DNA from: Leptolyngbya sp. Prado105
Lineage (GTDB): Bacteria > Cyanobacteriota > Cyanobacteriia > Leptolyngbyales > Leptolyngbyaceae
DNA length: 33,613 nucleotides
Reading direction: 5' to 3'
NCBI GenBank assembly: GCA_025454375.1
Contig: JALOOO010000028.1
Location: forward strand, 1-33,613
Position numbers and translations under genes: made by a program. Positions 2,986 through 16,600 of this stretch are shown here, piece by piece. How positions within the stretch are numbered: position 1 is the first letter of the stretch; every line of letters begins with the position of its first letter. The notes under the pieces were generated by a model, which searched no databases, had not been told where the DNA came from, and saw only the letters and a program-made list of their open reading frames with translations.

Positions 2986-3834
2986 ATGATTCTGCAAATG
3001 AATTTGGCAGCAGTTTTTGCTGCTGTGGCTCAGGCTACAATACGGCGAGTTCGTCCCGTAGTGTCAAGCGATCGCGTTCTGTTCCCAATGATTGGCTTTT
3101 TGGGTGTCATTCTGCTTTGGTGGGCGATCGCGCTTGCCAAACATGAGCTAATCCCAACGCCTCCTGAAGCACTGGTAGCAAATCTAGACTATATTTTGCA
3201 TCCATTTTACCGTCGAGGGGCAGGAGATTTAGGATTAGGTTGGCTTTTGCTCGCGAGTTTGCGGCGGGTGTTGATTGGGTTTAGCTTAGGGGCGTTGGTT
3301 GCGATTCCCGTTGGCTTTTTGATTGGCACGTCGGAGAAGGCAATGCTTGCGCTCAATCCAGTGATTCAGATTTTTAAGCCTGTCTCGCCGCTCGCCTGGT
3401 TACCGATCGCGCTTTCGATTTTCAATCTCGCTGATCCTTCAGCAATTTTCGTAATTTTTATCACTTCGCTTTGGGCAACAATTATTAATACTGCTTTGGG
3501 TGTGTCCAGTGTGCCAAAAGACTATGTCGATGTGGCGCGAGTGCTGGAAATGCCTCAGTGGCGGAGAATTCTGAAGATTGTGCTGCCTGCTAGCCTGCCC
3601 TATATCTTTACTGGATTAAGAATTAGCTTAGGGGTCGCTTGGCTAGTAATTGTCGCGGTCGAGATGCTGACAGGTGGAGTGGGGATTGGCTTCTTTGTCT
3701 GGGATGAATGGAGTCGATTGAATCTTAGCTCTGTGTTTTTAGCGGTCTTTGTGATTGGCTTGACTGGATTGCTACTAGATTCTGGGTTGGCACAGCTTGA
3801 AGCATTCGTCACACATCGTCGCCGATCGACTTAA
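2986..3834 (+). CDS. NrtB/CmpB/SsuC-type ABC transporter permease
   Basis: This 282-aa inner-membrane permease belongs to the nitrate/bicarbonate/cyanate/taurine (NitT/TauT) ABC importer family. Several hydrophobic spans are visible. The cytoplasmic ATPase-contact (EAA) loop runs into VLPASLPYIFTGLRISLG, which closely resembles NrtB and CmpB. A GGAG about 11 nt upstream supports the ATG at 2986. It is the first gene of a three-gene unit with the binding protein 21 nt downstream and the ATPase after that. This permease-first order differs from the binding-protein-first nrtABCD and cmpABCD operons. The substrate cannot be told from the permease alone. Confidence 0.9.
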   Translation: MILQMNLAAVFAAVAQATIRRVRPVVSSDRVLFPMIGFLGVILLWWAIALAKHELIPTPPEALVANLDYILHPFYRRGAGDLGLGWLLLASLRRVLIGFSLGALVAIPVGFLIGTSEKAMLALNPVIQIFKPVSPLAWLPIALSIFNLADPSAIFVIFITSLWATIINTALGVSSVPKDYVDVARVLEMPQWRRILKIVLPASLPYIFTGLRISLGVAWLVIVAVEMLTGGVGIGFFVWDEWSRLNLSSVFLAVFVIGLTGLLLDSGLAQLEAFVTHRRRST

Positions 3835-6485: not shown

Positions 6486-9413
6486 CTAGCTTTCGTAAGC
6501 ATCCATTGGTAAACAGGAACAGACTAAATTACGATCGCCAAACGCATTATCAATTCGACCCACTGCTGGATAAAATTTGTTCAATCTCGTCCAAGCAGTC
6601 GGAAAAATCGCCTCATGGCGCGAATAAGGACGATCCCAAGTCTCAGACGTGAGATCTGCAACCGTATGAGGCGCATTCTTCAAGAGATTGTTTGTGCGAT
6701 CGACTTTGCCATCTTCGATCGCGCGAATCTCTGCTCGAATTGCAATCATGGCATCACAGAAGCGATCGAGTTCAGATTTCGATTCACTCTCCGTCGGCTC
6801 GACCATCACAGTTCCTGCAACAGGCCAAGAAACCGTTGGCGGATGGAAGCCATAATCGATCAAGCGCTTTGCAATGTCATCGACTTCAATCTCTGCGTTT
6901 TTCTTAAACTCCCGCAAATCGAGAATACATTCATGCGCGACCCAACCATTCTTGCCTTTGTACAAAACAGGATAGTGACCTTCGAGACGCTTAGCAATAT
7001 AGTTCGCGCTGAGAATTGCTATCTCAGTTGCTTCAGTCAAACCCTGACCGCCCATCATTGCAATGTACATCCACGAAATTGGCAAAATGCTAGCACTGCC
7101 CCAAGGAGCCGCCGAAACTGCTCCAATTCCTGCTTCTCCACTCGTCGAAATCACAGAATGATTTGGCAAAAAAGGAACTAAATGAGCCGCAACCCCAATC
7201 GGTCCCACTCCAGGCCCACCGCCCCCATGAGGAATGCAGAATGTCTTGTGTAAGTTCAAATGACAGACATCCGCCCCAAAATCCCCCGGACGACACAAGC
7301 CCACCTGAGCATTCATATTTGCGCCATCCATGTAGACCTGTCCGCCGTTCTCATGCACGATCGCACAAATCTCTTTGATCCCTTCTTCAAACACCCCATG
7401 CGTTGAAGGATACGTCACCATCAAAGCAGCTAAGTTAGCTTGATGCTGTTCCGCTTTTGCTTTGAGATCTGCAATGTCAATATTGCCTTCATGATCACAA
7501 GCGATCGCGACAACTTTCATGCCTGCCATAACTGCACTAGCAGGATTGGTTCCATGTGCCGATTGTGGAATCAAACAAATCGTTCGATGCGTATCACCCC
7601 GGCTTTGATGATACTGACGAATCACAAGCAAGCCAGCATATTCGCCTTGAGAACCTGCATTCGGTTGCAGTGAAATGCCTGCAAATCCAGTAATCTCAGA
7701 CAGCCAGGATTCCAACTGCTTGAATAAGGTTTGATAGCCTTGCGTTTGATTCGTCGGGGCAAATGGATGGATCTGTCCAAATTCTGCCCAAGTAACTGGA
7801 ATCATTTCGGCAGTTGCATTCAACTTCATGGTGCAAGAGCCAAGCGGAATCATTGCAGAAGTTAGAGACAGATCTTTCGACTGCAAGCGATACAGATATC
7901 GAAGGAGTTCCGTCTCCGATCGATAAGCTGAAAAAGTGGGATGTGTGAGATACTCAGAAGTCCGAGTAAACTTTGCAGGAATTTGAGCATCTGGAATCGT
8001 AGGCAGCGAGCGACCTGCAAAGCACCCGATTAAATCGAGTAAATCAGCTTGAGACGTGGTTTCATCGATCGAAATCCCAACCGTATCCGCATCAATCTTT
8101 CTCAAGTTAATGCCTTTCTGCAAAGCCCTTGCAAGTACAGAATCTGCATCACATTCGACTCGAATCGTGTCAAAGTATGGCTCAGTTCCCAGCTTGAGTC
8201 CGAGCTTTTGCATCGCGATCGCCAATTGTGCTGTTAAACGATGAACACGATCGGCAATCTGTCTTAGCCCATCTGCCCCATGATAGACCGCATACATCCC
8301 AGCAATGACTGCTAGCAAAACCTGTGCCGTACAGATATTACTCGTTGCTTTGTCGCGGCGAATATGTTGCTCACGAGTTTGCAGCGCGAGTCTCAAAGCA
8401 GGCTGACCACTGCGATCTTTAGAAACTCCGACTAATCTTCCAGGCAGTTGGCGTTTGTAAGCTTCTTTCGTCGCAAAGTAAGCGGCATGAGGTCCTCCGT
8501 AACCGAGCGGAACTCCAAATCGTTGAGTATTCCCGATCGCAATATCTGCACCAAATTCTCCCGGTGGCTTGAGCAGAGTCAAACTGAGTAAATCAGCAGC
8601 AACAGTAACTAGTGCTCCTGCTTGATGAGCGCGATCGGCAAATTCTGAATAGTCATAAATCGCGCCATCGGTTGCCGGATATTGCAGCAATGCACCAAAA
8701 ATCGGAGTCTCAAACTCAAAGGTTCGATGATCACCGACAATAATTTCAATTCCAAGCGGGAGCGCACGAGTTTGAATGACCTCGATCGTTTGCGGATGGC
8801 AAGCTTCTGAAACCCAAAATGTCTTGGCTCCATTCTTGACAACGCCATAGCTCATCGACATTGCTTCTGCTGCTGCCGTGCCTTCATCTAAAAGCGACGC
8901 ATTCGCAATTTCTAATCCGGTCAAGTCCATGACCATGGTTTGGAAGTTCAGCAGTGCTTCAAGTCGTCCTTGAGCAATTTCAGGCTGATAAGGGGTGTAT
9001 TGCGTGTACCACCCTGGATTTTCTAGAACATTGCGCTGAATGACAGGCGGTGTAATGCAATTCGAGTAGCCCATGCCAATAAACGATCGCATCACCTGAT
9101 TTTTAGACGCGATCGCTTTCAATTCCTTTAAGAGTTCGTACTCACTTCGACCGGATCGGATTTGTAAAGGGCGTTGAATGCGGATGCTTTTTGGCACAGA
9201 TTGCTCGATCAGATCTGCGATCGAATTTAATCCCAGCACAGCCAGCATTTCGCGAATTTCTTCCCCACGCACGCCAATATGTCGATCGACAAAGCGATCA
9301 GTGTAGGTCAGTTCAGGGTTAGGAACGGTGGATTCTGAGGGTTCGGATGAATCGAAATCAATTGAGCGATCGTAGTCAGAGAGAGCAGTTACGGATATTG
9401 TGGGTTCAGACAT
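6486..9413 (-). CDS. gcvP: Glycine dehydrogenase (decarboxylating), P-protein
   Basis: GcvP is the PLP-dependent enzyme that decarboxylates glycine and passes the aminomethyl group to the lipoyl arm of GcvH. In cyanobacteria this serves photorespiratory glycine disposal and one-carbon supply. At 975 aa it matches the fused (single-chain) P-protein length. The PLP lysine is in [16 protein letters not shown], about residue 723. Further hallmarks include [15 protein letters not shown] near the N-terminus and [18 protein letters not shown] near the C-terminus. The first 35 or so residues, rich in Ser, Asp and Glu, are an unconserved-looking extension before the RHIG motif. It is the last gene of the gcvT-gcvH-gcvP run and is followed by a terminator. 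Confidence 0.97.
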
Positions 9414-13273: not shown

Positions 13274-13576
13274 ATGATGAACGCTTTTGAACCTGTGCCG
13301 CCGACATGGACAACTTCGGCAGTTCATTCTTTCTCGTTTGCTTGTCCAACCTGTCATCAGTCTTCCAAAGAAGCCAATAGCGTTTGGATCAACCGCCGCG
13401 CCCCAGTTTTCACCGAAGACTATCGCAAAAAATGGCAAGAATTTTATCATTGCCAATGCGGTCAGGTTTGGTGGGCATGGAGTAGCGATCGACCGTCCAG
13501 CGAGTTGGGAGAACGCGAACGTGATGAACCACGCCGTCGCCGTTTCGATTCGTTTAACCCTTTTGACGACTTCTAG
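13274..13576 (+). CDS. Small Cys-rich (zinc-ribbon-like) hypothetical protein
   Basis: The protein is 100 aa with two Cys pairs, CPTC (about residues 24-27) and CQCG (about residues 60-63), spaced like a zinc ribbon. The second pair sits in YHCQCGQVWWAW. The C-terminus is Arg- and Asp-rich. I recognise no named family; it resembles conserved cyanobacterial unknowns. The ATG at 13274 is followed at once by a second ATG, so the true start may be at 13277. Its last 23 bases overlap the 3' end of the convergent metal-permease gene, leaving no room for a terminator between them. A nucleic-acid-binding or metal-binding role is only inference. Confidence 0.65.
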   Translation: MMNAFEPVPPTWTTSAVHSFSFACPTCHQSSKEANSVWINRRAPVFTEDYRKKWQEFYHCQCGQVWWAWSSDRPSSELGERERDEPRRRRFDSFNPFDDF

Positions 13577-14459
13577 GCAGCAGGCTTTTAATCTCACGCA
13601 GTAAAGGAATCGGTTGTCGAGTCGTCGATCGAGGTTGAGTTAGCACGCCATGTCGAGGACTCAAAAGAAACGCAAGGAAAAATAATCCTGATGCGACCAT
13701 GACGATCGCGGCTCCAGATGGCAAATTGTAGAAATAGCTCAAATACATGCCGCTAATACTAGAAAAAATCCCGATCGCGGCTCCGAGAATCATGACATGA
13801 TGCAATCGTTTGACCAATAGATAAGCAGTCGCACCTGGAGTAATTAACAGCGACAAAACAAGAATCACTCCAACCGCTTTCATACTGGCAACGATCGTTA
13901 ATGCAATTAGCACCATTAAGCCTAGATTCAACAGATTGGTCGGCAATCCTGCTGCCTGTGCGCCTAAAGCATCAAACGTATAAAAGAGTAGTTCTTTATA
14001 AAAGAGAACCACAATCGCCAAAATCACCGCAGCAATAATCGCAGTATCTCGAACATCACCCGCCGTCACACCCAAAATATTGCCAAATAGAAAATGATTC
14101 AAATCGATTTTGTTATCTTTCTGAATCACCGTGATTAATGTAATTCCAACCGCAAAAAACGCACTAAAGACAATCCCCATTGCCGCATCTTCTTTAATCG
14201 GCGATCGCGTCCGAATCCACGCAATGATTAATGTACTTAAAACGCCTGCAATAAACGCCCCAACAAAAATATTAAATCCAAATAGAAATGCGATCGCTAG
14301 CCCCGGCAAAACAGAATGACTAATCGCATCGCCAAGGAGCGCTAAGCGTTGGACGATTAAATAACTGCCCACGATCGCACAAATCAATCCGACCAAGATC
14401 GCGATGATCAGAGATCGCTGCATAAATCCATACTGCAAAGGCTCAATCAAGGCTTCCAT
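13554..14459 (-). CDS. mntB: Manganese/zinc ABC transporter permease (MntB-like)
   Basis: This 301-aa membrane protein belongs to the metal (Mn/Zn/Fe) ABC-3 permease family. It carries about eight hydrophobic segments. LALLGDAISHSVLPGLAIAF and TRSPIKEDAAMGIVFSAFFA are family hallmarks, and NKIDLNHFLFGNILGV resembles cyanobacterial MntB. It lies 2 bases after the ATPase gene, so translation is probably coupled. Manganese is the likely substrate given the similarity to Synechocystis MntB as I recall it, but zinc cannot be excluded. The last codons overlap the convergent 13274-13576 gene. Confidence 0.88.
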   Translation of the reverse strand: MEALIEPLQYGFMQRSLIIAILVGLICAIVGSYLIVQRLALLGDAISHSVLPGLAIAFLFGFNIFVGAFIAGVLSTLIIAWIRTRSPIKEDAAMGIVFSAFFAVGITLITVIQKDNKIDLNHFLFGNILGVTAGDVRDTAIIAAVILAIVVLFYKELLFYTFDALGAQAAGLPTNLLNLGLMVLIALTIVASMKAVGVILVLSLLITPGATAYLLVKRLHHVMILGAAIGIFSSISGMYLSYFYNLPSGAAIVMVASGLFFLAFLLSPRHGVLTQPRSTTRQPIPLLREIKSLLPRSRQKG

Positions 14460-14461
14460 AG

Positions 14462-15262
14462 TTATGCAGCATCTGAAAAGAATACGACCTTCCCACCATA
14501 AGCCTGTTGCAAATTGTCTTGTGTTAAGACTTTTTGCCGTGATCCACTTGCAATCAGTGATTTATTTAACAAAATCAACTCATCAAAATTGACGATCGAT
14601 TCGCCTAAGTCATGATTCACCACCAGCACTAATTTATTCTGGCGCGTCAATTCCTTAAACACATCGAACATAATCGTCTGTGTCTTCTGATCAATTCCCA
14701 CAAACGGCTCATCAAAGCAAAACACATCCGCTTGCTGTGCCAATGCCCGTGCTAAAAAGACTCGCTGTTGTTGTCCACCTGACAGATCAGAGATTGCTCG
14801 ATCACGAAATTCCATCATTCCGACTCGTTCTAAAGCCTGCGTTGCTAATCTGCGACTGATTGATGAATAGCGCTGAAACCAGCCCGTCTTCTTCGTGCGT
14901 CCCATCATCACGACATCCCAGACCGTCACCGGATAAGTCCAATCAATCTGCGATCGCTGCGGCACATAAGCGACTCGATCCAACTGATCAACCAGCGCTC
15001 TACCCTGATAAATCACTTCTCCACTGACTGCCGGAATCAACCCCAGCATTGCCTTAATCAGCGTACTTTTCCCGGCTCCATTGGGTCCAAAAATCCCGAC
15101 TAACCGACCCGGTTGAACTGAGAAACTGATTTGATGTAGCGCATCGATCGCACGATATTTCACACTGAGATTCTCGATCGTCAGATTCGGCGAAACATCT
15201 TGCGCCGGATTATGAACCGTCAATCTCGGATAGGAATTCTCAAAAAATGGAGTCGATTGCAT
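14462..15262 (-). CDS. mntA: Manganese/zinc ABC transporter ATPase (MntA-like)
   Basis: This 266-aa ATPase partners with the downstream permease. It has Walker A GPNGAGKST, signature LSGGQQQR, Walker B VFCFDEP and the switch His in VVNHDLGE. The YVPQRSQIDWTYPVTVWDVVMMGR stretch is typical of metal ABC-3 ATPases. No periplasmic binding protein gene lies upstream, although the Synechocystis operon is mntCAB, so the binding protein must be elsewhere or lost. The upstream region carries the tandem repeats at 15282-15346. Confidence 0.9.
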   Translation of the reverse strand: MQSTPFFENSYPRLTVHNPAQDVSPNLTIENLSVKYRAIDALHQISFSVQPGRLVGIFGPNGAGKSTLIKAMLGLIPAVSGEVIYQGRALVDQLDRVAYVPQRSQIDWTYPVTVWDVVMMGRTKKTGWFQRYSSISRRLATQALERVGMMEFRDRAISDLSGGQQQRVFLARALAQQADVFCFDEPFVGIDQKTQTIMFDVFKELTRQNKLVLVVNHDLGESIVNFDELILLNKSLIASGSRQKVLTQDNLQQAYGGKVVFFSDAA

Positions 15263-15281
15263 ATCAGTTTACCTGGTCAAT

Positions 15282-15346
15282 AATGAAAGAAAAATGAAAA
15301 GCTTGAATACCCTAAAGTATGACAGAAAATGAAAGAAAAATGAAAA
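15282..15346 (-). promoter_or_regulatory. Perfect 19-bp direct repeat upstream of mntA, candidate operator
   Basis: AATGAAAGAAAAATGAAAA occurs at 15282-15300 and again, without mismatch, at 15328-15346. Each copy contains two ATGAAA hexamers 11 bases apart (15283, 15294, 15329, 15340), the spacing of one helical turn used by PhoB/OmpR-type response regulators. Manganese uptake in Synechocystis is controlled by the OmpR-type regulator ManR, so this could be its counterpart; that link is inference. Confidence 0.55.
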
Positions 15347-15365
15347 TCTCTTAATTTCCTAGTTT

Positions 15366-15412
15366 AGGCAACGTCAAATCGAGTTGAATCAGCTTTATGG
15401 AAGACGTTGCCT
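15366..15412. repeat. 10-bp inverted repeat upstream of tgt
   Basis: AGGCAACGTC (15366-15375) and GACGTTGCCT (15403-15412) are exact reverse complements with a 27-base spacer, 82 bases before the tgt start. There is no T run. It could be an operator or a leader hairpin. Confidence 0.4.
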
Positions 15413-15493
15413 CCGGCTCACGGAATACGTGTTCTCAATCTCATCCCCTCGCCCTTATGATGGAATCTTGCATTTGTTTCGGAATTTCAAGTC

Positions 15494-16600
15494 TTGAATC
15501 AATTCTCTTACCAGTGCCAAGCACGCTGCACTCAAACCCATGCCCGCGCTGGAGTCTTCCACACCCCTCACGGCATCGTCGAAACCCCTCGCTTCATGCC
15601 TGTTGGAACTTTGGCAAATGTAAAAACCATTACGCCTGATCAACTCAAAGCGACAGGCGCACAGATGGTTTTATCCAACACCTATCACCTCCACTTACAG
15701 CCCGGAGAAGACATTGTAGAAAAGGCAGGGGGTCTGCATCGATTCATGGGTTGGTCGAAGCCGATGTTGACTGATTCAGGCGGCTTCCAAGTCTTCAGTC
15801 TGAGTGAAATGAGAACGATCACCGATGAAGGTGTGACCTTTCGATCGCCTCGCGACGGTCAGATGATCAAAATCACGCCAGAAAAATCGATCGAGATTCA
15901 AAACGCGCTTGGGGCAGACGTAATCATGGCATTTGATGAGTGTCCTCCACCGGGAGTCGGACGTGACGCGACTGAGAAAGCAACGTCTCGAACCTACGAA
16001 TGGCTAAAACGCTGTATCGAAGCACATCAAAGATCTGATCAAGCCCTATTTGGAATTGTGCAAGGGGGCGAATTTCTAGATCTCAGAGCCGAAGCCGTTC
16101 GACAATTGGCGGATTTGAATCTACCAGGATATGCGATCGGCGGGGTCAGTGTCGGCGAAGCGCCTGAAGTGATTGATCAAGTCGTCCAAGCCACCACGCC
16201 CCTTCTACCTGAGGACAAACCGCGCTATTTGATGGGAGTCGGAACTTATCGTGAAATGGCTCGTGCGATAGCTGCTGGAATGGATCTATTCGATTGTGTG
16301 ATTCCGACTCGACTAGCTCGACATGGAGCCGCTTTAGTTCAAGGCGAGCGCTGGAATTTGAAAAACGCGAAATTTCGAGAAGACTTTACGCCCATCGACG
16401 AAACTTGCCCCTGTTACACCTGTCAGAATTTCAGTCGGGCATATGTGAGTCATTTACTGCGATCGCAAGAACTGCTAGCTTACACCTTAATTTCGATTCA
16501 CAATATTACTGAACTGATCCGATTCACTCAGCAAATTCGTGCTGCGATTTTTAACGGTACTTTCCATACCGAATTCGCAGCATGGCTTACTTCTCTCTAG
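15494..16600 (+). CDS. tgt: tRNA-guanine transglycosylase (queuosine pathway)
   Basis: Tgt swaps the wobble guanine of GUN-anticodon tRNAs for the queuosine precursor. The 368-aa length is normal. Visible hallmarks are [33 protein letters not shown] (catalytic Asp), [23 protein letters not shown] (second Asp), and the zinc site CPCYTC with the following AYVSHLL His. The start is a TTG giving [19 protein letters not shown]; no in-frame ATG lies nearby upstream. In several cyanobacteria tgt is followed by psbK; here a 251-aa gene separates them. Confidence 0.95.

Follow-up and report, generated by a model that had tools for sequence, protein, structure and literature searches.

A tandem direct-repeat box upstream of mntAB in Leptolyngbya sp. 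Prado105 as a putative ManR operator shared with other manganese-uptake genes of cyanobacteria

The mntAB genes of Leptolyngbya sp. Prado105 are preceded by two copies of a direct-repeat box that most probably form the operator of this importer. Judged from comparative sequence data, the pair would provide two tandem sites for ManR, from which manganese (Mn) uptake is repressed when Mn is plentiful. A role as a manganese-regulator switch site is very likely because the same sequence precedes Mn-uptake genes in many cyanobacteria. Beyond this locus, we lean towards a reading in which one ManR box defines an Mn regulon larger than the one operon that is commonly named. Such a regulon would include mntAB or mntC, mntH, and importers similar to hmx1-hmx2, together with a multicopper oxidase, an M48 membrane peptidase, a Band-7 protein, and a protein of about 130 residues in some lineages, and it would bring hmx under Mn control in many cyanobacteria other than Synechocystis. 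The anatomy, conservation, and target specificity of the boxes are direct observations, made in the window (the whole stretch of 33,613 nucleotides that was analyzed), in the remaining contigs of the same genome, and in related genomes.

The repeat pair occupies positions 15282–15346 of the plus strand, where AATGAAAGAAAAATGAAAA occurs at 15282–15300 and again at 15328–15346 with a start-to-start distance of 46 bp. The sequence-only reading had described two identical 19-mers, each with two ATGAAA hexamers 11 bp apart, and both the positions and the identity (19/19) hold; extended to 22 nt, the copies still match at 21 of 22 positions. On the strand of mntA, each copy reads TTTCAT-N5-TTTCAT followed by an A/T-rich triplet, and the box can be written as TTTCATWWTNNTTTCATWWT, that is, two 11-bp direct repeats. 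Box 1, nearer mntA, lies at 15280–15299 on the minus strand (TTTCATTTTTCTTTCATTAT on the mntA sense strand), and box 2, farther away, at 15326–15345 on the same strand (TTTCATTTTTCTTTCATTTT); both are strict matches. The half-sites run head to tail with a period of 11 bp, about one helical turn, which is the arrangement expected for an OmpR/PhoB-type regulator. Such a pair exceeds chance expectation. Exact 19-mer repeats within 100 bp of each other occur once in the window and in none of 200 dinucleotide-preserving shuffles, and exact ATGAAA-N5-ATGAAA on both strands is found twice, against a shuffle mean of 0.015 and a maximum of 1 (200 shuffles). The looser count with one mismatch, confined to the window, is weak and by itself not significant (2 versus 0.68 expected; two or more in 13 of 100 shuffles). 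A position weight matrix (PWM), built from 199 distinct sites that had themselves been selected by the TTTCAT-N5-TTTCAT pattern with at most one mismatch, scores boxes 1 and 2 at 29.9 and 30.0, and the next-best place in the window at 3.4.

The pair is placed in the intergenic region between mntA (14462–15262, minus strand, start at 15262) and the divergent gene tgt (15494–16600, plus strand, start near 15494; Pfam TGT and NCBIfam Tgt). It spans 17–84 bp upstream of mntA; from the start codon of this putative Mn importer gene, the near ends of the boxes are 17 and 63 bp away. The mntA product matches Pfam ABC_tran as the ATP-binding subunit of an Mn-type ABC importer; its best NCBIfam model is the manganese ABC transporter MntA, at 240 bits under a 400-bit cut-off. 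After a gap of 2 bp follows mntB (13554–14459, minus strand), the permease subunit (Pfam ABC-3, E 2e-83), which also matches NCBIfam metal-permease models, all below their cut-offs, and is likely in one operon with mntA. Mn is therefore assigned as the putative substrate by similarity, below the NCBIfam cut-offs, and by context. An mntC-like reading frame adjoining mntA or mntB was not found in the window, and tgt may now occupy the former place of mntC. Between the boxes and tgt, a perfect 10-nt inverted repeat is also present (AGGCAACGTC/GACGTTGCCT, 15366–15375 and 15403–15412, with a 27-nt spacer).

Within its own genome (an assembly of 383 contigs and 5.69 Mb, 93% complete), the box was traced as follows. 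The core TTTCAT-N5-TTTCAT occurs at 10 sites, against 2 for the reversed control, and the exact 17-mer of the window at four places, two of them here and two on another contig (C111). That second double site has a spacing of 47 bp, and 10 bp separate the end of its second copy from the start codon (ATG) of an NRAMP/MntH gene. The strict pattern, with the flanking A/T positions included, yields five sites against none in the control. The fifth is a single box just upstream of two adjoining GDT1-family (UPF0016) genes on contig C182. All five strict sites precede mntAB, mntH (double in both cases), or the GDT1/Hmx-like pair (single). A genome-wide scan had been proposed as the check, with random scatter of the motif as the outcome that would count against an operator; the double repeat recurs only before mntH, the strict single before the Hmx-like pair, and every strict site stands before putative Mn-uptake genes. 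Allowing two mismatches gives 14 sites, barely above the 11 of the control, so matches beyond the five strict ones are not counted as real. A check upstream of the genome's three full-length mntC-like genes showed no box (best PWM score −0.9); a fourth mntC-like match, L098, is broken. One 8.1-kb contig of the same genome (C105) has three copies of a sister motif, TTTCATCNTGRTTTCATTTT (L121 at 152–171, 3008–3027, and 7693–7712). Its contexts are an RppB-type kinase gene that it precedes, the space between two glycosyltransferase-like genes (assigned by eye), and a position beyond mntH, some 57 bp from the stop codon; its core is also found past mntH in G460 (L219, 2966–2982). It is perhaps the box of another regulator.

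The box is also conserved before mntA. Among the mntA loci listed in a search for relatives of MntA (at least 80), the upstream region of 77 of 80 contains the core with no more than one mismatch, all in one orientation, and the remaining three have a box with two mismatches, TCTCATATTTTTCTCATTTT. Across these 80 listed loci, the 32,000 positions within 400 bp upstream of mntA hold 102 matches, and the 482,751 positions elsewhere, 15 times as many, hold 6. The inner bases of the box vary among relatives. Spacing between boxes (68 pairs) is 34–35 bp in 28, 41–48 bp in 17, and 17–18 or 22–24 bp in 13, with no clear preferred helical period. The full double pattern has four sites in three of 386 genomes of the phylum. 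Two of these are the own-genome sites, one precedes an mntC-mntA operon (G085), and one a multicopper oxidase gene (G296).

A search of 145 genomes of the class that disregarded genes altogether found the strict box at 206 sites in 103 genomes, and the reversed pattern at 5. Targets were read for 150 of the 206 places, those among the matches listed, which gave 126 loci with 151 sites in 74 genomes; a target was called within about 400 bp of a gene 5' end by tblastn at E 1e-6. Among these listed matches, 145 of 151 sites (120 of 126 loci) precede mntA, an mntC-type binding protein, mntH, GDT1, or a multicopper oxidase. By locus, the listed targets are GDT1 (38), a binding protein (29), mntA together with a binding protein (27), mntH (14), mntA (11), and a multicopper oxidase (1); by genome, GDT1 accounts for 38 of the 74, binding proteins for 54, mntA for 38, and mntH for 13. 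Similarity to three proteins of the own genome and to one MntC decided what counted as a binding protein, and zinc-type proteins may therefore be included. The orientation of the box is gene-specific among the listed matches. TTTCAT lies on the sense strand of mntA in 53 cases to 1, and the opposite orientation prevails at GDT1 (38 to 0), mntH (15 to 1), and binding proteins (63 to 10). For mntH, the 11 genomes shared by both searches contain 12 close genes (E below 1e-100). Nine of the 12 have a strict box beside the start among the matches listed; those of G185 and G389 and the second copy of G479 do not.

At six of the 126 listed loci, the box precedes genes without a known role in Mn uptake. 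In two genomes, a strict box lies upstream of an M48 peptidase gene, at 45 bp (L214) and 61 bp (L233), and a Band-7 protein gene (L232) is likewise preceded by one. The Mn box also stands 6–31 bp upstream of genes for a protein of about 130 residues without a Pfam match (L243, L250, and L252), which an ArsR-like gene (by eye) adjoins in L243 and L250. Multicopper oxidase genes L014 and L253, the latter named by similarity to the former, carry the box as well, in double form in G296; a link to Mn, for example through its oxidation, is only putative.

The genomes scored as box-negative were followed with the PWM. Among 30 selected genomes, largely box-negative ones, 23 have an MntA match. Two variant boxes, at 21.9–25.6 bits, lie upstream of mntC in each of G014, G076, and G093, and shuffles of these loci (five each) reach at most 6.6 bits. 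Several other genomes scored box-negative also have variant boxes near mntA or mntC; G387, G401, G410, and G175, among others, have none near these genes by PWM. Some mntA loci have PWM scores within the range of shuffled sequence, and a shuffled version of a different locus gave 18.2 bits.

The GDT1-family genes deserve separate consideration. Hmx1/2 are UPF0016 proteins described as importing Mn, and in Synechocystis their transcripts show no significant change with Mn excess (PMC11649195). An initial view of the GDT1 pair as an Mn exporter was dropped on the basis of the same description. Among the matches listed, a strict box precedes hmx-like genes in 38 of 74 genomes. Of the best hmx-like loci in 14 selected genomes, those of four show a box-like site scoring at least 18 bits (G011, G048, G051, and G391) and those of ten show none, namely in G014, G076, G080, G093, G002, and five members of family f19; the G080 match may be a longer GDT1 gene. 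G014, G076, G080, and G093 form one genus (g8), which we take as Synechocystis, and the absence of a box at their hmx-like loci fits the reported constitutive expression. In G014, two overlapping box-like sites of 17.5 and 20.9 bits (L413, 1033–1065) lie about 440 bp before the match to a longer GDT1 gene. Mn regulation of hmx in other lineages is a prediction that appears to be new in the literature searched, which mostly excluded subscription papers.

ManR is the regulator that the genomes point to. In PCC 6803, ManR is Slr1837, a protein of 234 residues with cysteines at positions 64, 154, and 230, whose primers imply that it starts with MANILL and ends with YCFEAN (PMC4361706). By both termini and the cysteines, the putative ManR of G076 and G093 is recognized in a protein of 232 residues that begins with MANILLVDDE, ends with YCFEAY, and has cysteines at 64, 152, and 228. 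Its best match in the Prado105 genome is L114 (contig C29) at 57% identity, with other OmpR-type regulators at 42% or less, so that among 22 Trans_reg_C domains this genome has a single clear ManR orthologue. The only kinase encountered among its loci is of the RppB type. Relatives of L114 at E 1e-60 are present in 125 of 145 genomes, as a single copy in 115 of those. Box and regulator largely coincide: 99 genomes have both, 26 only the ManR type, 4 only the strict box (G395, G407, G422, and G475), and 16 neither. This association is confounded by ancestry because 13 of the 16 double negatives belong to family f19, where both are absent in 13 of 13 sampled genomes.

Published work describes ManR as binding and repressing the mntCAB promoter of PCC 6803 (PMC7020235, PMC11649195, PMC13421787), with repression also given in PMC4361706. 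A published sequence for the ManR-binding motif was not found in the literature searched. A promoter of the PCC 6803 mntCAB type would carry this kind of box, since the mntC promoters of G014, G076, and G093 have variant boxes; the comparison with the ManR-bound promoter runs through these genomes taken as Synechocystis, not through PCC 6803 itself or a footprint. The sequence-only reading proposed a metal-response operator with ManR as the candidate. Comparative evidence supports both parts: the former by the own-genome targets and the conservation before Mn-uptake genes, the latter by L114 and the variant boxes.

The boxes could instead be Mn-uptake operators bound by another member of the OmpR family, such as the RppA-like protein L116. 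In G185, mntC and its box are immediately preceded by an RppA-like response regulator gene (L226, 311–985), and L114 and L116 are close relatives, as both exceed the NCBIfam RppA cut-off. Distribution and identity nevertheless make RppA the poorer fit, and we regard this alternative as unlikely. L116 finds a match at E 1e-60 in 53 of 145 genomes against 103 with the strict box, which leaves at least 50 box-bearing genomes without one, and the Synechocystis-type ManR is far closer to L114 (57% identity) than to L116 (41–42%).

With ManR as the preferred regulator, we infer binding at these boxes, repression as the sign, and Mn as the signal. Each box would offer two 11-bp head-to-tail half-sites of the TTTCATAWT type to this OmpR/PhoB-family protein. 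When Mn is sufficient, phosphorylated ManR would sit on both boxes and block transcription; when Mn is scarce, ManR would leave and uptake would be switched on. In the own genome, mntH and the hmx-like GDT1 pair would come under the same control. OmpR-family proteins are often activators, and activation from these boxes is the obvious counter-proposal. It is improbable, as many sites lie about 5–60 bp from called start codons (some farther), which is late for an activator, and published ManR represses mntCAB (PMC7020235, PMC11649195, PMC4361706). Repression is preferred on precisely these two grounds, the published role and the short distance between many boxes and start codons.

That the element serves tgt rather than mntA is highly improbable. 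The boxes do share the mntA-tgt intergenic region, and a weak promoter-like match on the plus strand overlaps box 2 (2 found, 0.9 expected). However, tgt stands beside a box only here and in G460 of the same genus among the 126 loci listed, whereas 38 listed loci have the box before mntA, 27 of them between mntA and a binding-protein gene; tgt is probably not a target. Equally hard to credit is a function in the RNA, as a leader element or as a very short upstream reading frame: the plus-strand copies can be read as ATG AAA GAA AAA TGA, but relative to the transcript the box is conserved in one orientation at some genes and in the other at others, its inner bases vary, leader folding is no better than in shuffles (z −0.50), and positions 14900–15700 have no Rfam match.

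Because of photosystem II, cyanobacteria need far more Mn than most bacteria. In the literature found, most evidence for control by ManSR concerns a single operon of a single model strain. With a precisely defined box and a list of its targets across lineages, the Mn regulon becomes directly testable. The box predicts Mn regulation of hmx and mntH in many cyanobacteria outside Synechocystis and offers a potential site for reporters of Mn status.

Among the closest known systems is ManS/ManR-mntCAB of Synechocystis sp. PCC 6803, which, like the locus here, combines an OmpR-family regulator with an Mn importer promoter. The likeness extends to the variant boxes in three Synechocystis-type mntC promoters and to the ManR orthologue encoded here. 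Unlike mntCAB, the importer operon here is mntAB without an adjacent mntC, and the box is also found at mntH and the hmx-like pair, whereas hmx-like loci of Synechocystis-type genomes are without it. In Anabaena PCC 7120, ManR reportedly bound the mntH (Nramp) promoter through a described DNA motif (Huang and Wu 2004). In Prado105, an mntH gene likewise has the double box, and if the two motifs are the same, the present finding is partly a rediscovery. Further parallels are found in the pho box of PhoB, where an AT-rich spacer separates two direct repeats of 7 bp with an 11-bp period, and in HLR1, the direct-repeat box of the cyanobacterial OmpR-family regulator RpaB. The TGTCAT core of the pho box resembles TTTCAT, although the targets here are Mn transporters and not phosphate genes. 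HLR1 shares the direct-repeat design with the box described here and differs from it in core and period.
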